Assembly (NCBI GenBank): GCA_009746045.1
Contig: RPFO01000072.1
Location: 1,285,330-1,349,329 of the forward strand
DNA: 64,000 nt
From: Mesostigma viride
Lineage: Eukaryota > Streptophyta > Mesostigmatophyceae > Mesostigmatales > Mesostigmataceae
Direction: 5' to 3'
The notes below the pieces were generated by a model. The model did not search any database. It saw only the letters and a program-made list of their open reading frames with translations, and was not told the origin of the DNA. Made by a program: the position numbers and the translations under genes. How positions within the stretch are numbered: position 1 is the stretch's first letter; each line of letters starts with the position of its first letter. Below, one piece after another: positions 8,509-48,547 of this stretch.

Positions 8509-8581
8509 GGGTGGTCCCACGCGGAATGGGGTCATTTTTGGCGCATTTTGCAAGAAAAAAACGCTAGTTTCAATCGTCCGA
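8509..8581 (+). repeat. left terminal inverted repeat of the 40-kb element
   Basis: Begins GGGTGGTCCCACGCGGAATG and runs to TCGTCCGA. Compared with the right end, the first 24 nt are identical, a gap of about 8-9 nt follows, then the A7-containing block ending TCGTCCGA matches with a single mismatch. Confidence 0.8.
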
Positions 8582-8802
8582 TATCTTTTTTTCGCGCGAA
8601 TTTGGCGTCCGATCGCGTATTTTCGAGCTAATTTGGTGTCATAATGCTTAATTCATGTCAATTTGAGCGTACATTCCACATCGAGAGGCTTGAAAGTTAG
8701 TAATTCATGTAAATTTTACGTGGAGAGACTCGACATCATCCTAACCTTTGTATTAACCATAGGACGAGCATTGCCAGCGCATGTCCAAGTGCTAACTTTC
8801 CC

Positions 8803-11271
8803 TCACACTTTCGAGGGCCTCTTCCGTAATTTCGCTTCCGCGATCTGCTGTTCCGTTTTCGAGTTCCTCCTCTTCTTATCGATCTCCTTTGCAGGCGCCC
8901 AGACTTCCACATCCTTCCAGCTCTTGCCATCCGTCAGCTTTACCACCTTCATCGCGTAGTCCAGCGGCATCCACCACAACTTGTTCTTCAACTTCCCTCC
9001 CTTCTCCCCCTCAGCGAAAAACTTAAATGCGACGTCCCTCCACTTGGTGTCGTATCCAGACACCTGCCCATAAAGCATGACGTCTTCTAGCTTGGCATAC
9101 ATTGGCGTAGCCGTATCCTTGTTCCCTGCTTGCATAATGGCTAAAGTCCACCCATCACACCAAAAGGCCTCTGGTGCTCCGAACCCCATTTCCCCGTCCA
9201 TAAGTCTCATTTCCAACGTGGGCTTGTCATCATCCTCATCGCCCGCCTGACTGTCTTCCGCCCCCTTAGGCTCCTCCCGTCCGGAAGTGTCAGCATGTAC
9301 AGCCGCTGGTCCGAAGCCCACCGCCACATTAGCCAAGCGAAGTAACTGCTCCACATCCTCATTACCTGCGAGCAAACCGATCATGCCATCAACGCATGAC
9401 TAAAATCGAGTTAGTAGAAATCGGACTGCCAACCGTGAAAAATCAAAACACTCTACATACCAGAATTCACTCGCAGATTTTTTCTTACCCTTTTTGGCCT
9501 TTTCCTTCGACCTCTGCTCGCAGGTAGACCCCGTCTGGGGGTGGGGGGCAGGCTCCGGGGCGGGTTTGGCGGGCTCGGCAACCTTGGCAGTCTTCGCGGT
9601 CTTGGGTAACTTCTTGGAAGCAACGCGCTCCTTTCCCCCGTCCTCCTCCTCTCCGCCGCCATCCTCCTCCTCCTTCTCCTCCTCATCGTCCGAATCTGAA
9701 AGCACAACTTCTTTTCGACGCCGTTTCTGAGGCAGGGCAGGCTTGGGAGGCTTCCCCACCTTGGCCGATTTCTTGGAAGCAACGTGCTCCGCAGCCTTCC
9801 CACCCTTGGCGGATTTCTTGGTAGCAACGTGCTGCTCCTCCTCCTCCTCCTCCTCCTCCTCCTCCCCCTCCTCCTCCTCAGCATCGTCGTCCTCCTCCTC
9901 CTCCTCCTCCTCAGCATCGTCGTCCGAATCAGCCACTGCCACAACTGGCTTACGAAGCTGCTTCTTCGGTACCTGAGAAATGGCCAGAGTCGGCGGGGGA
10001 ACCCGAAGCTGCTTCTTCGGTACCTGAGAACTGGGCAGAGGCGCCGGGGTGGGCAGAGTCGCCGGGGGAACCCGAAGCTGCTTCTTCGGAACCTGAAAAA
10101 CGGGCTGCGACGCGGCAGGCTTGGAAGGCCCACCTCCATCATCCTCAACAAGTGACACGACTGCCCGTCGAGTCACTTGAGAAGCGGGCTTCTTCGCCGC
10201 AGGCGGATCCGAATCACCTTCAGGCCCCGTCCTCTGTTCGGCCTGCTGCGTTCTGACCTCGACGGGGGTCTCTCCGCGGTTAGACCCTCCTGCCGGACCT
10301 CCATCCCCTCCATCCCCTCCCTCCAACAACTGTTGGTCATCCCTCTCCACCACGGCGGACGATCCCCCAGCTTCGTGGGAAGCTTTTCGCTTCTTCGCCC
10401 TTCCGAGCCTAGGCCCCCCATCACCTTCCCCCTGTTCAAGCCGCTCCCACAATTCACTCCCTTTCCCGATCCTTTCCACTATCTCTTGAAACCCCTTAAT
10501 CTCCGTCTTGGTACCAAACACGATCACCATCGGTTCGAACCTGGAGAAAAAGTCGTGGGCGCAAGCCTTCAGCACATTATCGTACATCCCGCCCGGTTGG
10601 GGAATGGACGAAGCTGTCGGGCAAGGACCGAACGCCCACCACCCTCTCTGAAAGTTACTCCACTTATCACCCCAAATGTTCGCCAAGTTCAGCAGGCTCA
10701 GGCACGGAAGGGACCTGCCCAAGGGAAAGGGGCGGGCTGAAGCTGAGGCAACCTCGCCTGCCACCTGCTTGACGAGCGACTTGTCATCATCATCACCGTC
10801 TAGTTCCTGACAGCAAAACCAGACCCGGCGACGGCCCCAGTCCACACTCTGCCACTCATACTTCACGTCCCATTCCTCCTCCTCCTTCGCCTCCTCCTCC
10901 TTCTTCGCCTCCGTCTCCTTCCCCTTCCCCTTCCCCTTCCCCTTCTCCAGCCCCTTCACCGGCCCCTTCATCGCCGCCTCCTTCACCCCCCCTTCGAGTA
11001 ATCCAACTTTTGGAGCGTACTTCCTGAACGCTTCCGGAGCCAAAAGTGCCAAACCCACCGTCTTGTCCTCGCTCTCTTTTAGCAGAATCTCCTGAAAGTC
11101 GATCTTGCCACTACTGAGATCCTTTCTCGGAATCCTCAGATGTGCGGCGTGTTTTTTGGCTTTAAGGGGACGGGACATGCCCGAATTTTTTGGCGCCAAA
11201 AAATTCGCGCCGGAACCGAAGGTCATAAATTTCACGTGCACGGTGTGCGCACCCCTTGCGGAAGTGGCCAT
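8803..11271 (-). CDS. unknown two-exon protein with long acidic and lysine-rich linker
   Basis: Exon 1 starts at the ATG at 11271 (MATSARGAHTVHVKF). The GT-AG intron is most consistent with 9456-9400 (57 nt, phase 0). Exon 2 ends at 8803, giving about 800 residues. There is a globular N-terminal region, then a KGKGKGK/E-rich stretch. Three copies of the short repeat QVPKKQLR follow, then a long Glu/Asp tract (SDDDAEEEE...) and three VA(S/T)KK(S/L) repeats resembling nuclear linker sequence. A globular C-terminal domain closes it (FWCDGWTLAIM, WRDVAFKFFAEG, LWWMPLDYAMKVV). I recognise no family. The composition suggests a nuclear, perhaps nucleic-acid-associated protein; that is inference. It is the gene closest to the left end of the 40-kb element and is transcribed towards that end. 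Confidence 0.65.
9400..9456 (-). other. phase-0 spliceosomal intron in the leftmost cargo gene
   Basis: On the minus strand GTAGAG...TTTTAG joins the frames of both exons without a stop. An alternative donor four bases upstream (GTATGT, at 9460) has a better consensus but puts a stop in the joined frame. Confidence 0.6.
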
Positions 11272-13425
11272 GGCGACTGCGTTCAGGCGAAACTACCACA
11301 CTAGGGCAGGCGAAATGCAAAAATTTTACTCGAATCTAAAAGACGATGAGTTTATGATGTTAGTTTGTTGCGGAAATCAGCCAGTTTACAATATCGCTGT
11401 TGTTTTTTTATGCCATCGGCATGGGGGGTAATCTGAATTTTTTGGTCGCGCGGAATAAAATAGAATTCATGATAGCGGCAGTAAAATCGCGGTTTTTAGG
11501 GTTGTTTTGACCGTGAAGCAGGCGTTAATATCGGTTGCATCGAATTCTAAACCGCGCTGGTGCTTTTTCCCAGATTTTCGGCCATTATCGGTAAGTAATT
11601 GTTCAGACCTGCGCAGTGCGTGTCTGACCTGTCCATGGAAGAACGGCGGTTGTTGCGCGCCTGGGCGAGGGATTTACGAGGGCGAGGTACAGATTTGTCG
11701 CGAATGTTATCTGCTATCAGTGCTTTCTTCTATGAGCTCATCGTTCGAGGTTTTTTGCGTTCTTTTTGGGCAGTTTCCGCCAGCTATCTCGCCGTCGCTT
11801 GCCGTTGTGTTGTCGAATACCTGGCAGCTTTAGATTGTTTTCGTTGATGTCGTGATCAGGGCCGCTTCAGTCGCAGCCTATAGCTCTTCAGGAAGGTATA
11901 AGGCATTTCATAAAACGTGTTCCGGCAAGGATGTTGTGCGTATGGACGCTTCTTGTTGTGTGAGAGTGACGCACCCTCTCTTCGCAGCGGCATCACAGCG
12001 CTCATGCGCTGAAGGGCCGCCAATGGTTTCTTTGCATTTTATCGTGCAAGGATGGAAGTGTTTTAGTGATGATGATGTTGGAGATATTGCATTTGTGTGA
12101 CTGCATGTAGATAGCTGGCACCAATGGTTGTTTGAGCTTTCCTTTGTTATGATGATGTGACAAGACTACAATGTGCTGAGCCAACCATGGTTGACATGCA
12201 TGACTGCATGCAAGCTATATATACCATGTTCCTGCTTGGTTCCTTGCCCTCCATAGTCCCAGTTTGTCATCCATGCCGGGGAGGACAGTTTAGGAGGTGT
12301 TGTTGAGTTGATTAGCTTGGTTGTCATCAACCTTACACTCTAACCTAGGAGAAACATAGGAAATGCTGCTTAGGCATATTAGGGCTACCATCGTCAAGGC
12401 TATGAACATATTTACAAGGCTGGCCATGCTGGAGGGATGATGAAGACATATGAGGTGCGTGGCCAGCCCTTCGTACATTGTAAACATACTTAGCATGGTT
12501 TTGGTGCATGTTGGATGGCATATGAAGTGGCACTGTGGGGTTACTAACTTACTGAGTGGTCCTTAGCGCCTTGTCAGGTGGTCATATAGGAAACCCATCA
12601 ACTTGAGTAGTTCTTGTCACAATGACCCCCACGTTGACCATGCGTTGCCGTCAGCGTGCAAGAGTTAATTATGTGTGCTTTGGTCAGTTTGCAGATGTCT
12701 TTGATGAAGAAGGAGGTGCTAGTGTGGCTGAATGGTTACTATAATTTCCTTGTAGTGTCTACATGGGTGGCCGTCTTGGAATGGTTGTAACTTGGGCAGT
12801 TCTTGTCAGAATGGCGTCAAACCTGGAACATTGGAGGTACCATATGTGCAGAGGATGGTAGTGTGTGGTTTGGCCAGTTTTCACGTGGCTTAGATGTATT
12901 AAGGGGTGTTAGTGTGGTTAAATACTAGCTAAAACCTCCGTCAGCGTCATCACAGGTGGCAATCTAGGAATATCCATCAAATAGGGCTGCGCTTGTCAGA
13001 ATGACCTGAAAATTTGGGGCTGCATGTCCCCCCCTCTCTAGTATTTGAAAATATAAGATATGGCATGATTCCATGTGTTTATGATTTGTTTTATTTTTTT
13101 TAGTGAAAAAAAGTACCCTTTTTGCGGGAAAATCCATCAATGTGTCTAAACATCATTATTTTGTGCTCAAAATTAGGCAGACTTTCTCAAAAGTGGGGGA
13201 ACTAATTGGAAATATATGATTTGGTCCAAATATGTTTGCCCATTGTCCTAGGGAAAATATGCCAAAAGTAGCGTCTTTTTCTATTTTTAGCGCGTAACCG
13301 GCATCTGGTGGGGGCTAGTACCCCCCCCAAGTGGTTGGAATTTTTTTTTAAAATCATATTTATGGTTCCCAATCATAATTGGATTTTTAGCACATGCATA
13401 GGTATGGTTTCCAGAAAAGTGCCCT
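11272..13425. other. intergenic; degenerate ~190-bp tandem repeat at about 12560-13020
   Basis: No supported gene. Three diverged units start near 12571, 12761 and 12951; each contains CTTGTCA(G/C)AATG about 45-60 bases in. The rest is AT-rich and probably includes the promoter of the gene starting at 11271, but no motif stands out. Confidence 0.5.
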
Positions 13426-16400
13426 TTAGGCATATCCCCTCCCCTTAAGAAGGTAGGCGATGTTCCTCGTTATGATGACGGCCACATCCCAAAATTGCCG
13501 GTATCTGGCCACAATCTCCTGCCTGCCGACCGGCCGAGGGAGAGGATGGAGATTGAAGACGAGTTCGAAAATATGAGACGCCACAAACTCCTTGCCCTTT
13601 GCGTCCTTGCATTGCGCTTCCAGCGTCTCATCCTCCTTGAATCTGGCGCAAATGGTCAGCCGCAGGCACTCCAGCACATCCTTGGCGAACTCCACCAACT
13701 TGGTGAGCTTTTCCGGTCCAACCTGGCAGCTCATGATGCAATCGATCACGGCGTCCATCATAGGAAGGCTGGCCAAGTTCCTGAAAGCGGTCCAAGAGAC
13801 CTTCTGGCCTTTCTTCTCCCCCTCTGCATTCGCGAATTTGCACCTTTGCATCATCACCTCCTCAGGCGCGGGTTTCGTTGAGGCAGGATCATCAGTCTGC
13901 TCCTGTGTCAGACGGAGAAACGTGTTGGCCAGCGTGCGACTGTAAGCGGAATGCACTGAAGCAATGCTGTGGGCCGGCTTTTTCTTTCCTTCTGCTTCCT
14001 CCTCGTGTACATCCACCGCTGCCGGCTCCACATTCCCTTCCCTCCCCCCGCTTGCCGCATAGCCGGGAGGATGTACGTGAGCAGATTGGTGTAGTGGCCA
14101 TCCGCAATATAGTGGCCCTTCCCACGCGTGACTTTGCCGTATAGATATAGCTTGTTGTAGTTCCACACGTCAAGCAACGCCTGGCCCAGCGTACGATCCG
14201 CCACGGCTAAGTCCTCCGAATTCGCCCCCTTGGCGATGTCGAACAGCTTCTCCAGCTTGCCGGTCAGCACCGCCTGCGACATCAATTAACATCGAGCGAG
14301 CAACGACAAAACTCAGTCATAAAAGGCGAGGGGTATAGCTGCGGATAGACCCTAACAAAATTCGAAAAAGAAACGGCCGACAATACGCAACGAAAATTCC
14401 AACAAAAAAAAGGAGAGGGTCTAGCTGCAGCGAGACCCTCGCAAAAAACTTGAAGCGCACACAAAAAACAACCACGAAAATTCCGAGGGTCTACCCGCAG
14501 CTAGACCCTGCCAAAATAGATAGCTTACATCTTCTTTTGCCTTAGGTAGATTTCGAAGCTCACTCCACGACGGGAGCAGGTCGCCACCCTTGAGAAGAAC
14601 GACGTTCGTACCCATGTAACCACCACGGAATTTCCGCAACAGGTCCTGGAAGGCGTGCTCCGCCTCCTTAGGAGTACTTGCGAAATTGGACTCCGCCCCA
14701 CCCTCGCACATCATTGCCCGAACCTCTCCCCACCCGCCATCCGGCCCCCTGAGAAACGACTTTAACCCCTTAAAGTAGTGGTTCCCATCCACCACCGCGT
14801 ACCGGAGAACCAGATACGGTACCGGTACCCGTTCCTCAAAAAATTTCGGATCGTAGGACTTCATCGCAGTATTGCACAGCAGGTTGAAAACTTGCCGACT
14901 GCCCTCGATCTCCTGAGGCAAAACTGCGGCCACCTCGTCCACCTGGCGTAGGTACGCCACTCAACTCCTCTCGCCAGGAAAGAGGTGGTGGACTCCGTGT
15001 TAAGCCACACGTCGACTTCAGTATCCGAAAGGGGCCGGAAGTACCTGGACCCCACATCCTCCGCGTCAATCTTGGCGCCGTGGTAATGCTTCAGCCACTT
15101 GACGAAATCCGGCATGCACAAGATTTGCTTGTCGAACAGGTCAGGTTGAGATTCGGCAAGCGCCTGGAAAGGGAACTGCCAGACCGGGACAACAACCTTG
15201 AAGTGCAAGGCGTTGTCCCGCGCATTGAGGAGAATGCGGCCGTTCTCCTTAATGGTTTCAAGGTTTAAACGCCGCTGCCTCAAAGCCTCTGGCAAAATAA
15301 GCGCGTTGACCGTCTGGATCCGCATACTGAAACATCCGGTCTGCTGAAAATCGGCCGGCCGAATCCAACGCGTTTCCCTGAGAGTATTGGCCTTCCGGAT
15401 GTTCTGGTCCCTGACCTCCTTGTTCGAGTCGACCTTTTTCGAAGGCTTCCAGCTTTCAATGATAGGGTCGGTGTCCGGGTTCCCACTGCTCGTGAGCACC
15501 CCCTCCTTAAAAAGCTTGTTGAGTGACCGGAGCAGCTCAAGAAAGGGGGAGAACTCGGGCCAGTTTGGCAGGTCATCGACGTCCGCCATCCGCCTACTCG
15601 AGCAGTACTTGAGCATATCCTTCACCAGCGCGAACACGGCGTCATGACCAGGTAACTTCTTCTCCACCGTGGCGTCTTCGTCCCCCCCGTCATCCTGAAG
15701 TAAAAAATCGAAAAGGACCGCAGGATTTGCTCAAGTCAGTAATCTTTAGGCCGACCACGACATCCTGTTCAGGGACGAACAAAGTTCTGTTGGAATAGTA
15801 CCTTACTGACACTAAACACAAAGTCCCGCAGCCGGTCAGCGTCTACCCGCAGCGAGAGGTCTAAATTTTCACAACAATCGTACCTGTCCAGTTTTCTGCT
15901 GCTTCTTGGCCTCCTTAGCCTTCTCCTTCTCCGCCTTCTTCGCCTCCTTCTCCGCCGCCTTCGCCTCCGCGTTCTTCTTACTGTTGGCCTTTGCCACCGC
16001 ATTCAGCGCCCTTTTTCCCTCAGCGGCCCGACGACGAAAATCAGCCTTCATGAATTTCTCGATCTTGTCAACCTTTGCCTCTGAGTACTCCTTAGGCTGC
16101 CACTTGAAATTCTTGGTGGCTTTCGACTTCACCAGATTTGCGAATTCATATGCCAATTCACTCTTAAAGGTAGCGTCACCCAACACCTCCGTATCGAAAT
16201 CGGCATCGACTTCCGCCTCAAGTCGTGTCAGGTACTTGCGAAACTCGGACCCCGCAGGTCCCTCCGAATCGACGCCATCGGGCGGAGACTTAAGCATGAT
16301 CAGGCCAACAGCAATAATATGATCCTTCGCAACCTTCTTGCGGGAATCCAGCTTTTCCCTTTCATGCTCAGTCAATGGAGGCTTCGCCGCCTTCCCCCCC

Positions 16401-18224
16401 GCAGTACCCCCAGCGACAGCCCCCGCCTGCATTACAAAAAAAAACGAACAAGAAGGGACTTGACCTCAGTTCGATTGTTGCACCATCGTCTCTCTGCGGA
16501 GATACCCCTCAGCACGAAAAAAATCACACGAACTCGCGGCGGATGAACGTACCTGCACAGCCACTTCTCCCTCAGCGTCTCCCCCATCCTCATCTCCTCC
16601 AGCGTTTTCATCCCCCCCATCCTCATCTCCTCCAGCGTTTTCTTCCTCTCCGGCAGCGCCTGCTGAGGCCAAACCCCCCGCCTGTCAACACCGAATACGA
16701 CAGCTCATTGGAAATCAAAATTAGTCGACATTTGTATATTTCGCATAATGCGCTCACTAAAACTTCAGGCGAAATGCAGACATCCGAATATAGTTTAATG
16801 CTTACCATTTCCATCTCGAGTCCAGACCAAATACCAGCACTGTCAACAGCCATCGCCGCAGCCGCCCCCTGAAAAAAGACAACAGATTGGTTGGGGGCAC
16901 CGTTGAAATTAGCCGAACATGTCAGTCTCAATAAAAGGGTGAGGGTCTACCTGCAGCTAGACCCCATGTAAGATGCTCGTGGAAACTCGACGGACAAGCA
17001 CCCACCTTATCAACCAAGTCTGACAAATTCGTTACATCCGGCGATACGTCCCCTGGCATGGAGCCCCCCTGCATGATATGACAGGACAAACCATGAAGGT
17101 TGGTCAGCATATAGAGCCCTATTCAGGGAATGGAAACAACCCAAATCGATAAACGATATCGGCAAGTTAACGTACCGAAACGTAGAACTTCCACCTCCTC
17201 AAAATCTTCCCCAAAGGCCATATCGGCACTTGATGGGCTCTCTCCTTTTCCAGTTGCCGCCTCAATTCCGCCTCGAAGAACAACTCGAGGGACTGCCAAT
17301 GGCCTCCCGCCTCTAAATCAGACCACTCCGTGTCTGTCTTGGTTCGGATACTCTGGAGACAATCAACCAACGAGATTTGATCCAACCATTCCTGGACGAC
17401 TTCCCGGTATGGCTTATATGTCTGAATAACATGGAAGTCCTCCCGGTGCCGGAAACTTTGGATCACCTGTCCAGCCCAATCCAAAAAGAAAGCGACCGCT
17501 TCCCGCGAAAGGCTGGCGTCCGGGCTGACAAGAAAGTCAGTCCGCCACTTAACAAAAGATTGCAGTAAGTGGTCTCTTGCCATGTCCAAATGCGCGATCA
17601 CTTCATGTGCGCGCTCCTCCAATCCTCCTACGTCATTCATTCTTCCCGGCACAATTACGATATAGTCACTGTTGGACGTGTCAACAAATCCTTGCCTGAC
17701 AATATCAAACACTTCATCTTCCGACAGTGAAGCCCTCGAATCCGCTCTCATCTCATATCTCCAGTCATGAGTTTAAAGAGCTGATGCAACGCAGTGGTTT
17801 TCAAGGTTTCCATATAGGAAGCCTCGATGCATGTGAAGCCAATGTGGACCTCGAACTTTTCAACCTCATCAAAGAGCGTCGACCATATTAAAGCACGACG
17901 GGGAAAGTAACGTCCGACATCCTCCTTCAGGATGCACGACTGCGCGATCTTCAAAACCTCATACATGTCGTCACCAACGACCCTCTTCCCATGAATGGCT
18001 CGCTGTGTGGCTTCGAACAATGCAAGACGGCCCAGGCGGTCGTTCTTCCAAATTATGTGTGCCGACTCCGGACGGTCCACGACGACACCGGACTTCTCTG
18101 CAAACGCTATCTCGGCCGAAAGAAAGCGGATCAAGCCTCTCAAGCCCTTTTCGGTTTTACGACTCACCCCAGCCTCAGACTCAGTCTGAGCCAGGTACTG
18201 TTTCAGAATGGCCACCGTGGAGGG
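13426..18224 (-). CDS. unknown multi-exon protein, seven visible exons, all visible introns phase 0
   Basis: Exons in transcription order: 18224-17176, 17068-17006, 16868-16806, 16681-16553, 16426-15884, 15694-14529 and 14273-13426. Each junction has GT and CAG borders and every intron is phase 0. The first visible exon itself begins after a CAG acceptor, so at least one upstream exon is missing. Frames shift within exons near 17750, 14965 and 14060 (the last in a G-run). The product is over 1,200 residues, mostly helical and charged. Two exons are exactly 63 nt. Exon 16681-16553 encodes a duplicated acidic ENAGGDEDGGD. Exon 16426-15884 ends in a Lys/Glu/Ala coiled coil (AEAKAAEKEAKKAEKEKAKEA). 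No catalytic motif or known family is recognised. Three introns carry the 22-nt palindrome (16943; a variant at 15838; three copies at 14331-14508). Confidence 0.65.
14331..14508. repeat. three 22-nt palindromes in one intron
   Basis: Copies at 14331-14352, 14417-14438 and 14487-14508 lie in the intron 14528-14274. Each has the form GGGT(C/A)T(A/C)(G/C)C(T/C)GC followed by a near reverse complement ending AGACCC. Related copies lie at 16943-16964 (intron), 15838-15859 (variant) and 18298-18319. Confidence 0.85.
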
Positions 18225-18499
18225 CTGCAGACAACAAGAGTAAAAAAAAGGCCACACATCGTCGTCGTCGTCGTCAACAACCTTAACTCCTAGGTCAACG
18301 TCTCTCCGCAGCTAGACCCTTACGATCAATGTATGACATAAAATCCAACCCTTTCTACGATACACACACACCGTTCAAGCCACCCTACCAGCCATTAAGA
18401 ATGTACTCCAGCACGCAAAATGTACTTCGTACCGAAGTTTGTCTTTTTATGCTGAAAATTGTCATGCATGATGTTTGCAACCAAAATAGACCTCGTACA

Positions 18500-19230
18500 A
18501 AGTTTGGTATCGATCGGACGTCATCTTGGTGACATTTGCTAGCAATAAAGGTACATTTTTGTCATTTTTTGTTAAATTAAATAGTAATAAATAGGAAACA
18601 GTACTAAATCACGTCAAACCATCATGGATATTTGCAAGCAACCTAATTACCACTAGAATAGACCATGCACAAAGTTTGGGGTCAATCTGAACTCAAAATA
18701 GTGACGTTTGCTAGCATAAATACTGCATTTTTTGCCATTTTCAAGCATTTTGCTCAGTGTAAGCTACTAAACAATATCAAACTACGTCATAAAGCTATGA
18801 AATATTGGAAGCAACCTAAACACCACTAGATTAGACCATGGGCCAAGTTTGGGCTCAGTCTGACGTCAAAATAGTGACGTTTGCTAGCATAAATGGTGCA
18901 TTTTTTGCCATTTTCAAGCATTTTGCTCAGTGTAAGCTACTAAACAATATCAAACTATGTCAGAAAGCTATGAAATGTTGGAAGCAACCTAACACCACTA
19001 GATTAGACCATGGGCCAAGTTTGGGCCCAGTTTGATCTCAAAATAGTGACGTTTGCTAGCATAAATGGTGCAATTTTTGCCTTTTTCAAGCATTTTGGTA
19101 AGTATGCCTCAAACTATGTCAGAAAACTGTGAATTGTTGTAAATAACCTGTTTGCCACTACATTAGACCATCCTCAACTTGTAAGGTCAGGCATAGGTAA
19201 AGGTAGTGACATTTGCTAGCACTATATACA
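18500..19230. repeat. AT-rich tandem repeat, about 174-bp unit, 4-5 copies
   Basis: The phrase GTTTGCTAGCATAAAT and relatives recur near 18530, 18705, 18878, 19049 and 19209. Each is preceded by a TAGACCATG...AAGTTTGG block. Units three and four are the most alike. No coding content. Confidence 0.85.
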
Positions 19231-19868
19231 AGCATATTATGCCTCTTTTCGCATATACACATCAAAAATAACAAGACATCATCATATCATGGCCTTAATA
19301 CAAGGTGTGCAAATGCAAATCACACCAGATCGGATGACCAATGATGGGTGGCTGCATGCCATCACATCTACCAGGCTGCAGGGTGAGAGGCCACATCGCT
19401 ACAAGACAGGAATCCTCGCAATTGCACAACACCGCTAGTACACTGTGCACATACCCCAAGAGGATTTGGCTACAAGCCATAAAAGTTTGGCCATGCTAAC
19501 ACATTCTTCATCCAAGCAAAATGCAGCCTCTCCAAACTCAACTCGTTGATTTAAATTCAGCTAGGCCAGGCGTGCATGCTCTACTTGCCGACAACCATGA
19601 GTAAACTTGTCTACCACTTCATTCCATGCGCCGGTAGATGGCACCGTCTCATCTACCAGTCATCCCCGGCTCCCATTCCGCATCCTCCTCTCCCTCTCCC
19701 TCTCCCTCTTCCTCCTCCCCCTCCCCCTCCCATTCTCCCTCCCCCTCTCCCTCCTCCTCCCCCTCCTCCTCCCCCTCTTTCTCCCCCTCTTTCTCTCCCT
19801 CTTCCTCCTCCTCCCCGCCTTCACTGTCACTGTGCACAGCAGGGACGGCATCGTCTATGTGGGTGCCA
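19231..19868. other. non-coding, with a CT-rich simple tract at 19680-19815
   Basis: The tract is built of (CTCCCC)/(CTCCTC) hexamers. ORFs on both strands through it (poly-Pro/Ser/Leu or poly-Glu) are composition artefacts. Nothing recognisable in the remainder. Confidence 0.7.
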
Positions 19869-21660
19869 TCACCTGCGTTCACGGTGCCAGCCTAGCTCCT
19901 GTGGAAAGAAGCGAGCGCGGCCAAATGCCTCGACTGGGTGTGGGCAGCCGCACACGAACTGCGTCACCTCCGCCAGGGCATGATAGTCCTCATACTGCCC
20001 ATCAGCCCACATCGCCTTGATGAGCAGGTGACCTCCCCTTTCCTGAACCTTAGTGACCCAGCCATGGAAGCGCTCCCTCTTCCTCGCTATCCCCGGAAAC
20101 AGGGCACACAGGCGCATCCCGATAAGCGCACGTGCTCCATGCTCGGCAAAGTAGGCATTGCAGTCATCCTTTGCTGCTGCCCTGGCGGCGGTGGCAGTCT
20201 TGTAATGCTCAAAGTCAATCTGCGGGTGCTCTTTCAACGCCGCCACCGTGGCAGCTGACAGTTTGCCGGTACTGATCAGCTCAGGCTGGTGCACCTCTGC
20301 CGTACCGCCCACTGTCCAGTGCTGCAGGTGTACATCAGAAATGGGGACCGTCATCCCTGCGCTGCCGCCACCTAATGTCACTCTAGAAAACTGGCCCGTC
20401 CACGACGGTGCGTAGTAAGGAGAGGCGACAATGCTGTCACGCTCCGTGCGATCGCCTTCCAGATCAAGGACCTTCACCAGCATGTGTGGTGCCCACGGCA
20501 TTCCCTGCCCGCAGGTGACGGCTGGCCGCTTAACAACGAGTAGGTCGCTGCGTCGTATGAGGCTTCCATTCACCTTGAAGGTGTGCCTGCCGGAAATCAG
20601 TGTGCGCAAAGCGGGCGTTGCCGTTGATGTGCTCCCTCGCGCAGCGGGCGCACATGCGCGGTTGATCTGCGCTTGAATCTCGCGGGCAGGGCAAGCGACG
20701 TGTGAGATTACTTGTTTTATGGGCAGCCTCAGTGCTCGTGTTGCCCGCGCAACCGACTGGTCGCCTGCAGATCGCAGCGGTAAGGGTACCGCCTTGTTCG
20801 CTTGCAGTTCACGCTTCTCTTTGAGCTTTTGCTCCATGATGTCGAACAGATTCTCGTTGTTGGCACGCACATCCTCCACGGACTTTGGCACCTGCTCAAT
20901 CCATCCGTCCAGCAACTGCTGCTTCTCAGCGGCGACGATGTCAGGAAAAAGGCTGTGAAGGCTAGCGCAGGTACATCTCCTGGCACCGCCCTCGTCCCAT
21001 TCAAAAAGCGGCACTAGACCAGGACTTCCTTTGGGGCCTTGCCACGCTCTATGAGGAGGCACCCATAGACAGGATCTCCCTGCGGGGTGTACCCAATGGG
21101 CGTGACCCCGTCACAAGCCTCGCCATTAGGCCCTGTGGGCTGCCACTTGTTCACCGGTGCATTTACCAACGTCTCCGATGCGGCTAGGCGCCAGCGGACA
21201 TACACGGTCATATCCGGGCCCCAAAACACTTCGAGATCGAACACCTTCGAAGAGCGGTGCCTCTCCCTCTCGGCTTCGGTTGCTGGCTCATCATCCAAGT
21301 CGGCGGTGGCGCCCGCGCCCGCACCCGCGCCGGCGCCTGCGCCCCCACCCCGCCCGCGCCCGCGCGCGCGCCTTGGGTGGCGCCCGCGCCCGCACCCGCG
21401 CCGGCGCCTGCGCCCCCGCCCCCGCCCCCGCCTGGGCCCGCGCCCGCGCCCGCGTCTTGGGTGGCGCCCGCGCCCGCACCCGCGCCTTCTCCCCCGCCCC
21501 CGCCCCCGCCCGCGCCCCCGCCCGCGCCATGGGTGTGGCCCGCGGCTGGCTTCTTCGGAAATGCGTCCATCGATTTCACCCACCGGCCGTCAGCGGTGGA
21601 TGCACCCTTTCGGCCACGTTGTGACATCAAGCGCGGCGTCCCCAATAGAACAGTCATGCA
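19869..21660 (-). CDS. unknown protein with Gly/Ala- or Arg/Gly-rich linker and a possible Tudor-like C-terminus
   Basis: A plausible start is near 21660 (MTVLLGTPRLMSQRGRKGAS). The frame then passes a GC-rich hexamer tract (21300-21535) encoding either (GA)n or (GR)n. It resumes with an ordinary-looking domain (SSKVFDLEVFWGPDMTVYVR) and, after a further shift near 21030, runs from 21000 to 19869. The last about 370 residues contain FEWDEGG, a helical segment (EKQQLLDGWIEQVPKSVEDV), and a terminal block GMRLCALFPGIARKRERFHGW...IKAMWADGQYEDY. The spacing of aromatics and acidic residues in that block recalls a Tudor/chromo barrel. That is inference and the family is unknown. Frameshifts make the exact product uncertain. 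Confidence 0.5.
21300..21535. repeat. GC-rich (GCGCCC)n-type hexamer tract
   Basis: Alternating GCGCCC, GCACCC and CCCGCC hexamers about 235 bp long, with a partly duplicated larger unit. It is embedded in the preceding gene and is a likely site of assembly frameshifts. Confidence 0.9.
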
Positions 21661-21907
21661 ATATGAATAATCATTAGTATCAACGATGCGTTCATGCAGG
21701 CGTGAACTGTGAAATACAACAAGCATGCAACAACGACTCCAGCACACTTAGTAAATACTGCTCATAATATCTGTGGCACATGCAACATGGTTAAAACACA
21801 CATGGATGACCTGTATGGCTGCACATGAACTGTCCACCTAGAGAAGACTAGAAATTCAGCATGATATCAAGAGCCATCCACACAAATATATGTCTTACCG
21901 CAGCTTA

Positions 21908-22562
21908 GGGCTTCTTCGGGTTGAGTTGGCGAATCGAGCTTGTTGAGCCCTGCTCGAAGTAATGCTCAAATGCGATGCCCAGGCCCGCCAGCACATCATC
22001 AAATGTGATTAGTTTCACAGGTGGTCCGAAGAGTTCCAAACGTGGTTGCTAATTTTCAGGCAGTGCCTGAAGGCCGCCTCGAAAGTGAAACGCGAAAGTG
22101 AAAAGGGGTCACAAACCCTATGTTCATATCCTTGACTCCCCCGTCGAGAACGAACCGAAAACCAGCGCCATGAACGAACTTGTGACGAGTAGATGACGAC
22201 ATCGTGGTTATGGCGTCGTACCCCCCCTGGTGCAGCTGCTGCTTTATCGCCGCCTTCCTGTCCTCTTGCTTCCGCCCGGGCGAAAACCAGGCGCTTCGCA
22301 ATGCCTGGAGATGTGATATTCTAATGGGCTTCATGCACTCGTGGCCGCACTTACAGTCGAACGTCTCGTCGGTCACTAGGCTGCCGGCATGGGTGCTGCC
22401 GCTTAGCACTATGGCTGCGAACTTGCGCTTCCCATGGTGTCCCATCACCATGATAGCGAAAGCCAGGAAGCAGATAGCCACGATTATGTCCCAGCAAAGC
22501 CATAGCACACCTTCCGTTTCGACCGCCATGTCGGCCACTAGTCCGGATAGCTCAATGTGCAC
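21908..22562 (-). CDS. unknown small protein with one membrane segment and a Cys-cluster, two exons
   Basis: The ATG at 22562 opens MHIELSGLVADMAVETEGVL. A hydrophobic helix follows (about residues 20-42, IIVAICFLAFAIMVMG). Next is a CKCGHEC cluster and a charged helix (SHLQALRSAWF...RKQEDRKAAIKQQL). That Cys-cluster plus helix resembles the N-terminal zinc segment of some transposases. A likely last exon spans 22049-21908 after the acceptor AAATTAG (GPPVKLITFDDVLAGLGIAF..., stop after LNPKKP). The donor is uncertain. The first 25 codons and the region upstream lie in the left arm of a perfect 297-bp inverted repeat, so a second copy of the 5' end starts at 23030 on the plus strand. Function unknown. 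Confidence 0.45.
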
Positions 22563-23103
22563 CTGACCTTGACACTAATCGCACAAACAGCCACAATTTT
22601 GCAAGCAAGAAGACATGGCTACCTCGGCATTTCATGAAATGTACTTCGTGAAATGCATTTCGTGAAATGTACTAAGGAACGTGATTGGCCGGCGTTCGCT
22701 CGCCAAATCTCGCAAAATGTACTAAGGCACGTGATTGGTCCCGCAAAATGTACTAAGGAACGTGATTGGCCGGCGAAGATTCTGTAGGGAATTTTAATTG
22801 CAGCAAACAGAATCTTCGCCGGCCAATCACGTTCCTTAGTACATTTTGCGGGACCAATCACGTGCCTTAGTACATTTTGCGAGATTTGGCGAGCGAACGC
22901 CGGCCAATCACGTTCCTTAGTACATTTCACGAAATGCATTTCACGAAGTACATTTCATGAAATGCCGAGGTAGCCATGTCTTCTTGCTTGCAAAATTGTG
23001 GCTGTTTGTGCGATTAGTGTCAAGGTCAGGTGCACATTGAGCTATCCGGACTAGTGGCCGACATGGCGGTCGAAACGGAAGGTGTGCTATGGCTTTGCTG
23101 GGA
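22489..23103. repeat. perfect 297-bp inverted repeat (hairpin) with 21-nt spacer
   Basis: Left arm 22489-22785, right arm 22807-23103; I read them as exact reverse complements. The arms contain the 5' end of the gene at 22562 and further internal repeats (AATGTACTAAGGAACGTGAT and a CACGTGATTGG variant). Identity this high implies recent origin or conversion. A read-through transcript would form a long dsRNA hairpin. Confidence 0.95.
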
Positions 23104-24290
23104 TGATTATCATCGTAGTACATCATATGTATTACAGTACATTTCACGAAGTACATTTCATGGAGGCAGAGGGAAAGTTCCTGTTCATGGTGAGTCGGGG
23201 TTAGCAATCACGGCAATGTCGATACATGTACTTGCAGTATATACAAATGCCATAATGTCCTTAGATGCAGCATGAATGTCTATTGTTCGGATTTCTTTTA
23301 TCACGATGCTTAGGATGCCTTCCGACAGAAATCTGCTGCGCTACAGGTCGGGAATACCTGAACTTGATATGCGTGGCCAGTGGCCATGGCAGCCGGGGTC
23401 GGTAAGAATTAACTTCGATAGCCATGAATAATGCGGAAAGTGAACGTTGTCCACCCGCTGCACAGGGAAAATGGCTGCACAGGAACGGCCTGACGTGATA
23501 CTGTCGCAAAGCAGTTCTCATAAGCCGACAATTACACATTCGACTTATGATCGATAATCGGCGCAGGCCTTCGACATTCAAGCGCGCATCGAAACGTCGT
23601 GAGGATTTCGGACATTTAGATGAAGTTGGATTGTTTTCGGCCCTCGTATTTGCCATGATCTTGGCCATCCAATCTTTTTGCTTCGTGCACAGTTTGCGTT
23701 TGCAGTTAAGCGTAGGTACATGACAAGCTTGCGTTTGCGTTTGCGTTTGCGTTTGCCTTTGCCTTTGCCTTTGCGTATACATTTGCATGTGCGCTTGCGT
23801 TGCCGTTTGCTTATGCGTCCCAATGTATGTCTGGCTTTGGGCAATTCTATTTCCTTGTCGTTGGGATATGAGTGGGTGCTGGCGGTGGTGTTACTGTCGG
23901 CAGGTAGAGTGGCAGTGGCTTCAACTTCTGTTGCTTTTTCATTGCATTTGCATTTTCATTGGGTCTCTGTAGTTAACAACTGCTTTAAATATCTTTGTTA
24001 ATAGCCGGCTTCAGCTGTAATTTCGATTGCATGTTGCTTTTGAATTGCATTCGCACTGGGCACATGCAGTGGGCATTAGGCATTGGTAGTGCAATTACAC
24101 ATGCAGTCACACTTGCAATTGCAATGAAGTTGAAATTGAAGCTGCAGCTAAAATTTGCTACGTGCCTAACTGGTACAGTCGCATGTGCAGTCAACTTTGT
24201 GCTTGTTTATTATTATTATTTCTTCTTCTTATAATTTCTTCTTATTATTATTATAATTTCTTCTTGCTTTTCGTAATGTGTGGTGGTTAG
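23104..24290. other. non-coding, with (TTTGCG)n microsatellite at about 23711-23815
   Basis: No credible gene. It holds TTTGCG/TTTGCC hexamers and a TTA/TTC-rich stretch at 24205-24265. ORFs through the hexamers are periodic artefacts. Confidence 0.7.
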
Positions 24291-24299
24291 AATGGTGAT

Positions 24300-24443
24300 G
24301 GCAGGGGCAGGAGCAGGGGCAGGGGCAGGGGCAGGGGCAGGGGCAGGGGCAGGGGCAGGGGCAGGGGCAGGGGCAGGGGCAGGGGCAGGGGCAGGGGCAG
24401 GGGCAGGGGCAGGGGTAGGGGCAGGGGCAGGGGCAGGGGCAAT
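24300..24443 (+). repeat. (GGGGCA)n hexanucleotide array
   Basis: About 23 nearly uninterrupted GGGGCA units on the plus strand. Four-G blocks every six bases give strong G-quadruplex potential. Confidence 0.97.
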
Positions 24444-25486: not shown

Positions 25487-25583
25487 TGTGTGTCTCAGCT
25501 ACGTCTGCTATTGTTGCAGCTGCGCTCTACTTCTGGCTGTGGCTTTGGGTATAATTGTGGCTTGGAGTAGGGGTGAGGCTAGG

Positions 25584-27941: not shown

Positions 27942-28018
27942 CTGCAGAACAATATCAAAAAAGCAAGTTTCACAAATGTCATTCAGAATCTGAATCGCCG
28001 GCAGAAAAACGATGGGGA

Positions 28019-32216: not shown

Positions 32217-32816
32217 GCAGCTCGTATCAGCTATGGGGTCTCTCTGCGGCTGCGCTTCTTTTTCGATGGGCGATGGGACGGTCGCAATTCGCAAAACGGA
32301 CGCGGCGTCACAGGGCTGCAGCTCCAGAACCGTGTTGCCATTGAACGTGCCATTCGGCTGCCAGGCCCTCTGGGCCTGGTCGTCGTCACCATGGCCTCCA
32401 TGCATGACAAACGCCTCGTGCTGGGAGCACGTCGTCTGCTCCAGCGCGGTGACTTCAGCCTCGACGAGGACTACACACCGGCTCAACTGAAGGCGAGGAG
32501 CGCGGTGTGGAACAGCACCATCGTCAAGGAAACCAAGGAGCTCGAGACCCCGGGTAAGCGTATTATAAGCTGCGTCTGCTTCAGGATGGCTCCCAGAACG
32601 GTATTGAAAAAATTGGAAACGTGGCATCCTCGTTCCTCCCCACGGAACTGAAAACTGGAAGCGCGGCGCTGGTGCAAAAGCTCGATCCCATCTTTTGGAA
32701 CCAAGCTAGCGGATTGGACGACATCCAATATGCCGTCACCCGTGCTTGTGGCCGCAGGTATAAAAAGAGACGACCTCCAGCCCATTTACCTGGGAACATT
32801 CGGATGTTTGGCTGAC
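32214..32816 (+). pseudogene. LINE ORF1-like fragment (uncertain)
   Basis: The frame from 32214 reads through DKRLVLGARRLLQRGDFSLD and EDYTPAQLKARSAVWN, then shifts near 32555 into YYKLRLLQDGSQNGIEKIGN and ends at 32816. The pattern 'ARxLL...LDEDYTPAQ...R' followed by 'GKxxYKLRLLxDG' resembles the C-terminal part of L1-type ORF1 proteins. It also echoes the ORF1-like segment at 63679-63999. The assignment is tentative. Whether it belongs to the RT-bearing element starting at 33190 is unclear. Confidence 0.4.
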
Positions 32817-32891
32817 ATCGTTACCATGCGTCAATGTACAATGAGGTTCTGGGTTCGATTCCTGGTGTGGTCATGGAAATAAATTTTTTTC
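32795..32891 (+). other. tRNA-like B-box with T-run; possible SINE relic
   Basis: GGTTCGATTCC sits in a five-pair T-arm-like context and is followed 20 nt later by T7 (about 32884-32890), which could end Pol III transcription. No matching acceptor stem or anticodon arm is found, so it is not called a tRNA. Confidence 0.25.
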
Positions 32892-33189
32892 TGCACATCT
32901 ACTGAAATCAGTCATAGCACCAAACAATCACGCTGCAGCGAGACGCTATAGCCCTGGAGCCCGCTGATAAACCTGACATCCGGTACGTCTTACTATCATA
33001 GATTGCCGAACTATATAATAATAATAGTCTATACCACTTTTTCTTGTAAATGATTTACTAAATAATGATTCTATATACTTTAACATACCATATTATTAAA
33101 GTATGTGGAATTTAACCATGCTATTCACAATATATTATAAAATCTTTTGCAAAATATACTGTAATTAGTATATATATTTTCCGTTCAAC
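32892..33189. other. AT-rich non-coding stretch before the LINE
   Basis: Contains one half of a palindrome motif (CGCTGCAGCGAGACGC, about 32930) and very AT-rich DNA from 32995. It ends TTCAACAG just before the RT reading frame, so it may be an intron or simply the 5'-truncation point. Confidence 0.4.
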
Positions 33190-35240
33190 AGTCTGTCCCG
33201 CGCCAGCATGTTTGCGGCCGTCATGGAGTCCTTCGAGGACTTGTACGCTTGGACAGCCGTGTGCTACGGCCAGCCCGGCCAACTGGTTCACATCATGGAG
33301 GACGGCACTCGCGGCGGCCTGCTGTCGCGGTCGGGCACCCAGCAAGGGGACCCCCTGGGACCCCTGTACTTTGCCGCCCCCCTCCAGGGTTGCCTCCAAG
33401 CGGTCCATGCTGCCCACCCGGCGGTCGCTATTCAGGCCTACTTGGATGATATCTACCTGCTGGGCCCTGTGCCGGACACCACCGCGGCTCTGCTGGCACT
33501 GCAGACCGCGGTGGCCGACATCAACCTCCAGTTGACCCTTGCCAAGTGCGCGGTGTACTCGCCCCAAGGTGATTGCTCCGGCTTTCCGCCCCAGCTCTTG
33601 GGCCGGGACGAGCGCCTCCATGGGTTGGATGTCCTCGGCGTTCCGGTTGGCGACCCGGCCGCGTTTGTCATCGATGCTCTGCGGGCCGCCCTCGAGGCAC
33701 GCACTGAGGTACTGCCCTTGATTGCGCGCCTTCATGATTCGCAGACCAAGGGTCTGCTTCTGTGGTTTTGCGCTCACCCTCGCGTCGTTCACTGGCTCCG
33801 GGGCGCTCTTCCGTCTCAGGTCCGGCTGGCCGCCGAGGGCCACGACGAACGCATCCAGTCGGCCTTGGCGCAGCTGGTCCCGGGCCCCGACCTCCCGCCA
33901 CATGCTATTCGCATTGCCTCCCTGCCTGCACGGATGGGTGGCTGCGGTCTGACTCGTGCCGCCCGGCTGGCCCCAGCAGCCTTTTTGGGCTCCGTCGCTC
34001 AGTCGTGGGCGGAAAGCTGCCGGCTCCTGCCCCTTTTGGCAACGGCAGCGCCTGACCTCCTGGACCCCAGCAGCCCTTTGCCCTTCGTCACCGCCATCCA
34101 GGAGGCCTATGCTGAGATCCAGCAGGCCTGTTCTCCCGTCCGTGCCGCTCAGGCGGTACAGCGCCACCTCCCTCGCGGCACTCCCTCGGTCGCCTCCGTT
34201 CAATCTCCCGCCGCATTCCCTGCTCGCGTCATCGATAAACACCAGAAAACCTACGCGGGTATTCTGCACACGGCTGATTGGATTGCTCTTTTCGCGGACC
34301 TCAACGCCCAGGGACGTGCGTGGCTGTTCTCGCTTTCCTTGCGGAGTGTGGGCTCGGCGTACCTTCGTGCTCTTCCCATGGCCCCCCATTCGCCTTGGCT
34401 CCCAGCCACTACTCGGTGGCGCTCCGGCACCAGCTATTTGCCCCGCAGCCTCTTGTTCCGGCCGGGCGGCCTTGTGGTAGCTGTGGGCAGCCGCTGGATC
34501 CCACGGGGACTCACTACCTTGCCTGCATGGGGGGCCAACAGAATCAGAATTGGTATTTGTATTTGCACACTGTCCTCCTGACGGTGGTGCTCGCCATGAT
34601 TCGGTCGGTTTTCCCCCACGCGAACATCCGGTCCGAGGATGCGGATGGCGCTGCCTTCTATTCCCCCAACCACCGGCCTGACATCGTGGTGCTGGACTTT
34701 GAGGGGGTGGCCGGCATCTGCTTATTGACGTTTCGGTGGCGCGGCCCTTGGCTCTTAGCCACGTGGCTGGGGCCTCCCTCACGGCAGGTTACACGGCGGA
34801 CCGGGCGGAGCGGGCCAAGCTCCTGGCCTACGGCGACGTCGGGCACCATCGTGTGGTGCCCTTTGTCCTGGAGGAGTTTGGGGCCATGGGGCCCCTGACC
34901 TCCGCCTTCTTCAAGGAGTGTTGCCGGCTCCGGGAGGACCGGCTGGACCTGGAGGGCCAGCGGGCCCCATGGTCGGCGCGGACCTGGACGTCATATTGGC
35001 GTCAGCGCTTGTCGGTGGCGCTGACTCGGGCCATGGCGGACATCATGCTCCGCCGTACGCGGGCTGATTTTGCGGTGCAGCAGGGCTATTAGGTTCCTCC
35101 CGTTAGGCGTTTCCATTGGTCTTATCGTACTTCGTAGTATAGAGCTTTGACATGGCTCTGTATATAGGTTTATAGCTGGGCGTTTGCTTTGGTTTGAGTG
35201 ATTTCACTCTGCTGTAAGTAATTATATTTTTAATATATAT
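33190..35240 (+). mobile_element. 5'-truncated non-LTR retrotransposon with restriction-like endonuclease (R2-like domain order)
   Basis: RT motifs followed by a zinc knuckle and a PD-(D/E)XK-type endonuclease mark a site-specific-type LINE rather than an APE-type one. The first RT motifs (fingers) are missing, as in typical 5' truncation. The 3' UTR (about 35093-35240) recurs as a separate stub at 52093-52215, which defines the family's 3' end. Confidence 0.8.
33199..35092 (+). pseudogene. reverse transcriptase - CCHC - restriction-like endonuclease polyprotein
   Basis: From 33208 the frame carries GTQQGDPLGPLYFA (RT motif B) and AYLDDIYL (the catalytic YLDD variant of YADD). A long thumb/linker region runs to about 34420. 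A first frameshift leads to a Cys/His cluster CGSCGQPLDPTGTHYLAC, then HANIRSED and RPDIVVLDF, the core of the restriction-like nuclease. A second shift near 34730 leads to VARPL and a helical C-terminus that stops at 35092. In this family the nuclease nicks target DNA and RT primes on the nick. The sequence as given cannot encode one continuous protein; either decay or two single-base errors explain this. Confidence 0.8.
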
Positions 35241-35378
35241 TTTCTGATAAACAATTTTATCAATGCTACTGTGTTATTTTTGTTATTCTCGCCATGCAGG
35301 TATCTGAGTGTTCTGGGAGAACTAATAAGAGAATGAGCCGCGAAGGTGAGGAAAACCTGAAATCTTTTCGTCCTTATT

Positions 35379-35637
35379 GGGGTCTCTCTGCAGCTAGACC
35401 ATTTATAACCACAAGCAATAGCTTAAATTCAAGGGTCTCGCTGCAGCTAGACCCTCTTTATGGTTGCTATAAAATTAATGAATCAGAAGTCTGTGATTTA
35501 ACAATCGCACGCCGCAATGAAGGGTCTAGCTGCAGCGAGACCCCAATCTTGGTCGGGGTATGCTAAGTTCACCACATCAGGTAATCTTTTCGTCTAACGG
35601 AAAAAGCCCCTCTAAGGGTCTAGCTGCAGCTAGACCC
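35379..35637. repeat. four 22-nt palindromes upstream of the transposase-like gene
   Basis: Copies at 35379-35400, 35433-35454, 35522-35543 and 35616-35637. The last is a perfect palindrome of the GGGTCTAGCTG type. They lie just 5' of the transposase coding region, in a probable intron or leader. Confidence 0.92.
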
Positions 35638-35799
35638 CAATCGTGGTAAAAAATGATACACTTTCGAACTTTGTCTGTAATTGTCGCTTTTCCCAACGAT
35701 ACTCGATTTGCATGGATTTCGTTGTGCCGGTCGTCATGGCATGCAGCACGCGAACGGGTGGGAGTTTTCGCCCTTGCGTCCGGTCGTCCAGGATTCAGT

Positions 35800-46842
<11,043 letters not shown>

Positions 46843-47126
46843 ACAAGAAATTGGGGTCTCGCTGCGGGTAGACGACGCCCTAGTTTCGGCTCGTATTATA
46901 TCTTTAGAGTGGGGCTTCAGTAGGGTGTAAAAAGGTGGCCGCATATATTGTATATATTTTTCGAGATCTTTCTGAGGTCAAGTTTAAGGGTAGTTGATAA
47001 TTTTTTGCGGCCTTCAATTAACAGTTATTTTTTACTGACATAATTTTATGCTGTATATTTAAATAATGATAAGGATTTCGATATTTTTTTGCACAATCTA
47101 TTCGACATTTGTTTCTGCATGTCGAG
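46843..47126 (+). other. 3' flank of the transposase-like gene
   Basis: AT-rich, with a diverged palindrome at 46854-46875. No clear polyadenylation consensus can be assigned. Confidence 0.4.
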
Positions 47127-47661: not shown

Positions 47662-48099
47662 ATGGAGCAGAGCAATATTTTCGGTTCTCAGCATACCTAT
47701 GTGATGGTCGACAAAAATGAGCACGCTGCAAACATCAGAATTGATGTAGAGTTGCTCGGACCTTCTGCACAGTGGGGTGCAGGTGTCATTGCGTTCGGCA
47801 ATGGCATGATCGATCTGGTGCCACCCGATTCAGATTTGAACCCTGCTTACCAATGCGTGCCTGACAATCAGGCGAGAGTGGTGGTGGAGAGCACGGAAAT
47901 TCCGGGCTCTCCCAATGTATCAATGATGCGCCTGAGGGCCGAGGCCCAGCAGGAGTTCCTGGCTGCTGCGGAGAACGGCGGGGCCAAGTGGAACACCAAA
48001 ATGTATACAGGCGAGCCTCCCAACTACAGGGGAGACCAGTACCAGGGAGTGTACTCCTTCGGCGATTTTGACATCGACGGATGGGGCACCTTTTTCTAG
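47662..48099 (+). CDS. unknown small protein, last gene of the 40-kb element
   Basis: The frame is open from 47497, but the first ATG in good context is 47662 (MEQSNIFGSQHTYVMVDKNE), giving 145 residues. Further exons upstream are possible because a diverged palindrome lies at 47558. The product alternates short beta-like and polar segments (IRIDVELLGPSAQWGAGVIAF, YQGVYSFGDFDIDGWGTFF) and has no signal peptide or known motif. An AATAAA lies at about 48187, near 90 bp past the stop, and could serve polyadenylation. It is transcribed towards the right end of the element, mirroring the leftmost gene. Confidence 0.5.
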   Translation: MEQSNIFGSQHTYVMVDKNEHAANIRIDVELLGPSAQWGAGVIAFGNGMIDLVPPDSDLNPAYQCVPDNQARVVVESTEIPGSPNVSMMRLRAEAQQEFLAAAENGGAKWNTKMYTGEPPNYRGDQYQGVYSFGDFDIDGWGTFF

Positions 48100-48483
48100 G
48101 CGCAATGCCTAAGTTGTCAAATACTCCGACAATGTCAAAATTGCGAATGATAAAATTACGGACATGTGCACATATATGTACTGATTCAATAAAAACTTTC
48201 GGCAATTTTGTTCCCGGCATTGATAATCAATAGCTGCTAGCAAGCCAAGGACTTCAAAAGTGGCAATAGATCGATGTAGGTCGTCGATAAACTTGTCTAG
48301 TCGTCATATTTCGGTCGCAAAATTCGTGCGTGGCCTGCAGGCATCGGACAAAGTGCACGCAACAGCAGGAGTCGGTTGAGTTCGAAGCACGGCAGACACA
48401 AAATTTCGGCGCAAAGTCCGTCGGGCGAAAAATTCGCTCGGCTGCCAAATTTTCGGCAAGAATTTCGGCGCAATGTCCGGTTT

Positions 48484-48547
48484 TCGGACGATTGAAATTA
48501 GCGTTTTTTTCTTGCAAAAATCTACCCCATTCCGCGTGGGACCACCC
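48484..48547 (-). repeat. right terminal inverted repeat of the 40-kb element
   Basis: In reverse complement it reads GGGTGGTCCCACGCGGAATG..., identical to 8509 onward for 24 nt. The match continues to TCGTCCGA. The candidate duplication ATCC follows at 48548-48551. Confidence 0.8.

Follow-up and report, generated by a model that had tools for sequence, protein, structure and literature searches.

A many-copy family of large DNA transposons with 4-bp target-site duplications in the streptophyte alga Mesostigma viride

Introduction

Most eukaryotic cut-and-paste transposons are short, with genes for one or two proteins. CACTA/EnSpm elements usually have repeated internal motifs and non-autonomous derivatives, and the defining protein of Starships is a tyrosine recombinase, the captain. 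DNA transposition is described as much less efficient above 6 kb of cargo in PMC6431247, which also reports enlarged CACTA/EnSpm families of 16-20 kb with 4-5 open reading frames (ORFs) in Chondrus and characterizes Teratorn as a fusion of piggyBac with a herpesvirus. Polintons/Mavericks are defined by polymerase B and capsid proteins in the account of PMC5753468, whereas hAT and Zisupton (KDZ) elements are listed in PMC12730594 as making 8-bp duplications, or 5-7 bp in some hAT elements. Sola2 elements, as described in PMC3627910, have terminal inverted repeats (TIRs), 4-bp duplications, a transposase of 888 residues in one family and, in some cases, an extra protein. Here we describe an element at positions 8509 to 48547 of a 64,000-nt stretch of the Mesostigma viride genome (contig RPFO01000072.1, positions 1,285,330 to 1,349,329; hereafter the window). 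It very probably belongs to a family of large class II transposons that has many copies and was active recently; the canonical element is about 19.5-21.5 kb long, makes 4-bp duplications and carries a putative DDE-type transposase and five accessory genes.

Results

Ends of the window copy

The boundaries of the window copy are as follows.

8509..48547, no strand: the entire element, 40,039 bp, of which about 19.6 kb remain when nested insertions are discounted
8509..8581, plus strand: A-end TIR, beginning GGGTGGTCCCACGCGGAATGGGGTCATTTT, from end comparison
48484..48547, minus strand: B-end TIR, reading GGGTGGTCCCACGCGGAATGGGGTAGATTT from the outside in, from end comparison
8505..8508, no strand: left copy of the target-site duplication ATCC, from flank comparison
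48548..48551, no strand: right copy of the target-site duplication ATCC, from flank comparison

At the two termini, 24 nt match exactly in inverted orientation, those starting at 8509 being the reverse complement of those ending at 48547. These ends and the ATCC outside both of them, which had been proposed from the sequence of this stretch alone (the original prediction), were confirmed. After a short indel the TIRs share a second block of 21 identical nt, in agreement with the proposed terminal similarity of 64-73 bp. In the element family as a whole the inverted ends begin with GGGTGGTCCCACGCGG.

Paired ends, target-site duplications and empty sites

The 439.9-Mb assembly was searched with the 16-nt end, allowing one mismatch and using the reversed pattern as control. 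The end occurs 506 times (262 + 244), compared with 28 (14 + 14) for the control; the exact 30-mer of the A end occurs 144 times and its reversed control not at all. Pairing was analysed for 100 listed end places out of the 506, among which neighbouring ends no more than 60 kb apart form 32 pairs: 27 convergent, 3 divergent, one ++ and one −−. The convergent pairs, comprising the window copy and 26 others, span 10,313 to 58,385 bp. The divergent pairs (C16:15435/28871, C110:30081/40862 and C557:402070/402553) are possibly adjacent copies or rearrangements.

All 27 convergent pairs were examined for duplications, and the 4-bp flanks are identical in 23 of them, as opposed to only 2 of 702 comparisons between non-partner flanks. 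This excludes a chance origin of the match and removes the worry, voiced in the original prediction, that four matching bases would turn up by chance about once in 256. The duplications are varied (CTAA, GCCA, ATAT, TGCG, CGGA and others) and many are G+C-rich, G being somewhat over-represented at position 2 (14/23). Over the same 27 pairs, no duplication of 8 or 6 bp was seen; one pair has 7 bp, in an AGC repeat that can also be read as 4, and one has 5 bp. Two of the copies, C323:668-20202 and C224a (C224:2489380-2505487), have both flanks in common in opposite orientation, the flanks being 97.7-99.7% identical, so they are one site, probably in two assembled versions; counted as such, the tally by site becomes 22 of 26. 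The site may have been assembled twice because of haplotype differences, because it is duplicated, or through an assembly effect. One version of this site carries a 19.5-kb element and the other a 16.1-kb element.

Joined flanks of the 27 copies were also compared with the sequence retrieved for this analysis. Spanning matches of any kind were found for 6, of which 3 were accepted as convincing empty sites with matching breakpoints: L010 for copy C335 (99% over 198 nt), L008 for C224:638694 (98% over 187 nt), and, for C85, a match within 10.3-kb elements of 97.5% over the 200 nt that surround the junction, seen at 6/6 loci, whose register is less certain because the site sits in a tandem array. 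L022 (63 nt) and L034 and L042 (about 100 nt, 89%) were too short to be counted. The proposed check by empty sites thus succeeded for three other copies, while the retrieved sequence yielded none for the window copy itself.

One might suppose that the ends are short independent repeats that face each other by accident, and some of the listed ends are indeed unpaired. We give this explanation next to no credence, since it is refuted by the 4-bp duplications, the common interior and the empty sites. The search for further copies and the question of unpaired termini, both raised with the original prediction, came out in favour of a mobile element: the ends far exceed their control, 27 pairs are convergent, and the longer copies retrieved whole have a common interior.

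Length of the element and nested insertions

Thirteen of the 26 other pairs were retrieved whole, namely all six of about 10 kb and 7 of the 20 longer ones; the seven longer copies measure 16.1-24.7 kb and occupy 6 sites. Nested insertions in the window copy were defined by their absence from copy C85. Alignment of the two revealed five extra segments:

11167..13444, no strand: nested insertion I1, 2,278 bp, with the 5-bp duplication TTAAG, missing from C85
18383..26713, no strand: nested insertion I2, 8,331 bp by alignment, with its own TIRs (CCCTRCCAGCCRTTAAGAATGTACTCCAGCAC), from comparison with C85
32319..32595, no strand: nested insertion I3, 277 bp, from comparison with C85
33182..35232, plus strand: nested insertion I4, 2,051 bp, a LINE-like fragment with reverse transcriptase (RVT_1 match) and a 12-bp duplication, missing from C85
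37282..44740, no strand: nested insertion I5, 7,459 bp, CACTA-type, with CACTAGGAGCC ends and a TA duplication, from comparison with C85

These segments total 20.4 kb, and 19,643 bp remain once they are removed. As 20.4 of the 40 kb are later insertions, the window element itself is about 19.6 kb long, and the canonical element measures about 19.5-21.5 kb. The original estimate of about 30 kb before later insertions is accordingly too high.

The TIRs of I2 measure about 31 bp, its duplication is 3 or 4 bp (CCA or GCCA), and it contains gene C (~19657-22529) and GC-rich tandem arrays. In its interior (22489-23103), two perfect inverted arms of 297 nt surround a loop of 21 nt; this structure is either a foldback or an assembly artefact. 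I5 lies inside an intron of the transposase gene and is without a long transposase ORF; repeats of the TGTTGACAA type are abundant near its ends, and a related inverted fragment lies at 60260-61411 of the window. Outside the element, positions 1-7484 contain frames on the minus strand in which a C-5 cytosine DNA methylase domain and a sub-threshold zinc knuckle occur, together with reverse-transcriptase/RNase H-like sequence recognized by eye only; this region is probably a retroelement.

The transposase gene

One gene on the plus strand, modelled from the window and its copies, is transposase-like.

35300..46842, plus strand: transposase gene, with a 5' exon at ~35300-35342 and main exons at 35746-37217, 44834-45610 and 46096-46842

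The frame is wholly open in 2 of the 7 longer copies, where it runs for 998 codons over the three main exons; in the window, exon 35746-37217 has a one-base frameshift near 36003. As the full-length structure model was unusable (predicted local distance difference test score, pLDDT, 33.9), the catalytic exon, 44834-45610, was modelled alone. It is predicted to be RNase H-like, with one aspartate after the first strand and another after the fourth; the third acidic residue, in HGKGEVDG, is assumed. The transposase-like gene noted in the original prediction is present.

A protein search in which 7,992 candidates were scored gave two matches, both from the Mesvir1 protein set. Mv25249 is 99% identical and covers 74% of the query; Mv26047 is 60% identical and covers 99% of it. 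An alignment search added one more relative, the metagenomic P0003. P0001 differs from the window by two one-base indels and one residue; to judge from its sequence it may be another copy, since copy C323 likewise has a one-base shortfall in its last exon. Pfam transposase models gave no match to the protein, PDB sequences no meaningful one (one at E 0.73), and IMG/VR and GTDB contigs no confirmed relative. Five matches to the TIR 16-mer in viral contigs were treated as chance.

Core genes

Five further genes accompany the transposase, and the order A(−), B2(−), B1(−), D(−), transposase(+), Sm(+) is the same in all seven longer copies.

8809..11166, minus strand: core gene A, acidic protein, blocks 8809-9366 and ~10414-11166, in 7/7 longer copies
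13483..16423, minus strand: core gene B2, blocks 13483-13944, 14004-14273, 14526-14942, 15008-15697 and 15884-16423, in 7/7 longer copies
17170..18302, minus strand: core gene B1, blocks 17170-17760 and 17847-18302, in 7/7 longer copies
27151..27381, minus strand: core gene D (its conserved portion), encoding a charged protein, in 7/7 longer copies
47662..48099, plus strand: core gene Sm, 145 residues, in 7/7 longer copies

The gene finder merged adjacent genes. Insertion I1 sits at the upstream side of gene A, and 40 first residues once assigned to A were rejected because they lie in it. Among the ORFs and spliced models scanned, none of the element's genes matched a Pfam model at its curated cut-off. 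For B2, the protein collection yielded no match among the 7,984 candidates that shared words with it and were scored, and no relative was confirmed in IMG/VR viral contigs. Two PHROGs matches to B2, a tape measure protein (E 0.0027, over a charged stretch) and a family of unknown function (E 0.019), were judged to be chance.

Such orphan proteins might be captured host cargo, in the manner of Starships, and the lack of Pfam matches and of a B2 relative in the protein collection would suit that idea. It is nevertheless unlikely: identical genes in identical order occupy all 6 sites, and the sole copy-specific gene found, gene C, belongs to a nested element that has ends of its own. Because the same set recurs in 7/7 longer copies, A, B2, B1, D and Sm look, on comparison of the copies, like core genes of the element. 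Of the five or more multi-exon genes originally proposed, some belong to nested insertions, and the picture of a 40-kb or 30-kb cargo carrier is not supported.

Large size and several genes could equally be expected of an integrated DNA virus or a self-synthesizing element of the Polinton type. We regard this as more improbable still, since the duplications are 4 bp, not 6 bp, the gene models scanned hold no polymerase or capsid domain (the reverse transcriptase belongs to I4), the only PHROGs matches are the two dismissed above, and no relatives of the transposase or B2 were confirmed in IMG/VR.

A palindrome family within the element

The element also carries a family of short palindromes.

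10266..46875, no strand: 24 palindromes of family GGGTCTCGCTGCAGCGAGACCC, at no more than 5 mismatches
Starts: 10266, 14331, 14417, 14487, 16943, 18298, 28019, 28086, 28196, 28304, 28411, 28461, 32925, 35380, 35433, 35522, 35616, 44736, 45684, 45771, 45850, 45929, 46003, 46854

At this threshold all 24 lie between the element ends and none in the 24 kb outside, which bears out the private palindrome family of the original prediction. At no more than 7 mismatches the window holds 29, one of them outside (52908), compared with a mean of 2.35 and a maximum of 5 in block shuffles. The window and six of the seven longer copies have 24 each, with order and spacing that agree by eye, and C224a has 19. 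Variation amounts to 5 of 3,674 base comparisons in the palindromes, 41 of 7,150 in their flanks and 708 of 222,134 in random 22-mers. That the palindromes are less variable than their flanks is suggestive and no more, because similarity guided the choice of sites and 12 divergent rows were excluded.

Recent spread, a short derivative and a sister family

The core of the window element is 98.6-99.3% identical to the seven longer copies, and the family has spread through the genome recently. Four elements of 10.3 kb (C36, C80, C280 and C335) are 99.97-100% identical over their full length and have different duplications at each site, making this derivative a candidate for a very recent burst. 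C36 keeps both ends and 22 palindromes; at E 1e-6 it retains diverged pieces of A and a weak match to B1, and no match to the transposase, B2, D or Sm was found. The elements of about 10 kb (C36, C80, C280, C335, C429 and C69; L054-L065) are gene-poor and have two mirrored palindrome arrays.

The sister transposase, Mv26047, is encoded at no fewer than 45 places in the genome with 97-100% identity over its first part, a lower bound drawn from 45 of 1,622 candidates scored. Examples are C1:2473341-2478263, C1446:2303690-2308613 and C1524:1064590-1069513. On the 3' side, similarity ends at the same base in three copies. Read from the outside in, the terminus there is GGCCGGGCCCACTTCGAATG, as against GGGTGGTCCCACGCGGAATG in the window family, with 14 of 20 positions identical. 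By sequence comparison, then, a sister family with a 60%-identical transposase has a related terminus.

Discussion

In the model that we propose, the product of the plus-strand gene, about 1,000 residues long, is a DDE-type transposase that would bind the TIRs, excise the element and join it to a target cut with a 4-bp stagger. A, B2, B1, D and Sm would assist the element in accessory roles, the 24 fixed palindromes are candidates for binding sites that act in cis, and gene-poor elements such as the 10.3-kb family would move in trans. The DDE chemistry, the mobilization in trans, the accessory roles and the cis role of the palindromes are all features that we infer.

Several observations weigh against this model. 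Of the 100 listed ends, 46 have no listed convergent partner inside 60 kb; three pairs (C100, C310 and C382, on contigs of 32-41 kb) show no duplication, and one (C224:638694) repeats 5 bp, TGGCA, instead of 4. Among eight copies, the transposase frame is shifted in C446, C323 and the window, and C224a is without the 5' part; the first main exon of C85 and C1 was unreadable by the anchors used. The structure model of the catalytic exon is modest (mean pLDDT 55.8, predicted template modelling score 0.58). The link between transposase and TIRs is drawn from their common position in the copies, and the data fit cut-and-paste and other DNA-based routes alike. Finally, coding changes among copies give an overall ratio of nonsynonymous to synonymous polymorphism (pN/pS) of about 1.1, so that no selective constraint is visible among these copies. 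By gene, the values are 0.64 for the transposase, 0.55 for Sm, 0.78 for A_C, 0.83 for B2, 2.18 for A_N and 2.27 for B1; D has 5 nonsynonymous and 0 synonymous changes. Coding changes that look neutral are what one would expect once an element has inserted, and they speak neither for nor against function.

The family retains its six genes in a unit of about 20 kb, and its spread is recent. As a natural system it lends itself to asking how large DNA transposons escape the size limit, and what roles accessory proteins and internal palindromes play. It would also contribute a further class of repeats to a genome that serves as an anchor for streptophyte evolution; transposase copies sit in the predicted protein set of that genome.

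Comparison with known systems

By structure the family is a class II TIR DNA transposon, since it combines paired TIRs, a 4-bp duplication and empty sites; its catalytic domain is predicted. Starships, Teratorn and Polintons/Mavericks resemble it in size class and in having many genes, and in the spliced models and the subset of ORFs scanned Pfam detected no tyrosine recombinase, polymerase B or capsid domain, nor was a piggyBac-herpesvirus fusion found there. As the original prediction had argued for Polintons and hAT elements from duplication length, the 6 bp of Polintons/Mavericks and the 8 bp of hAT and Zisupton (KDZ) elements do not fit, each being found in 0 of 27 pairs. The enlarged CACTA/EnSpm elements described in PMC6431247 are likewise large and multi-gene. 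CACTA/EnSpm elements have, in the description of PMC12730594, CACTA-type ends and 2-3-bp duplications, whereas the Mesostigma element has GGGTGG ends and 4-bp duplications; the nested I5 does show the CACTA/EnSpm characters. No CACTA transposase domain was found by Pfam in the element models scanned.

Sola2 elements share with it TIRs, 4-bp duplications and a large transposase (PMC3627910). It is conceivable, if short of probable, that the Mesostigma transposase is a divergent member of a named superfamily with 4-bp duplications (Sola, or one found in Repbase only), in which case the novelty would lie in size and accessory genes. The 4-bp duplications of Sola2 speak for such kinship, and a weak match of Pfam DUF7869 to the catalytic region of the sister protein (E 0.022; 14.8 bits, with a cut-off of 26) hints at wider kin; the failure of any Pfam transposase model to match speaks against it. 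A search of the literature, judged mainly by titles, returned none on an element of this kind and none for DUF7869. Tentatively, the family may instead represent a new eukaryotic DDE superfamily, represented in one alga by two or more families. In such a superfamily, 20 kb of DNA would be moved with 4-bp duplications by a transposase and five conserved accessory proteins of no known family, and some two dozen 22-bp palindromes, kept even in the 10.3-kb derivative, would act as internal binding sites. Compared by description, Sola2 families have AT-rich duplications and TIRs of 12-21 bp (PMC3627910), while the Mesostigma element has varied, often G+C-rich duplications, TIRs of 64-73 bp, five further core genes and 24 palindromes.

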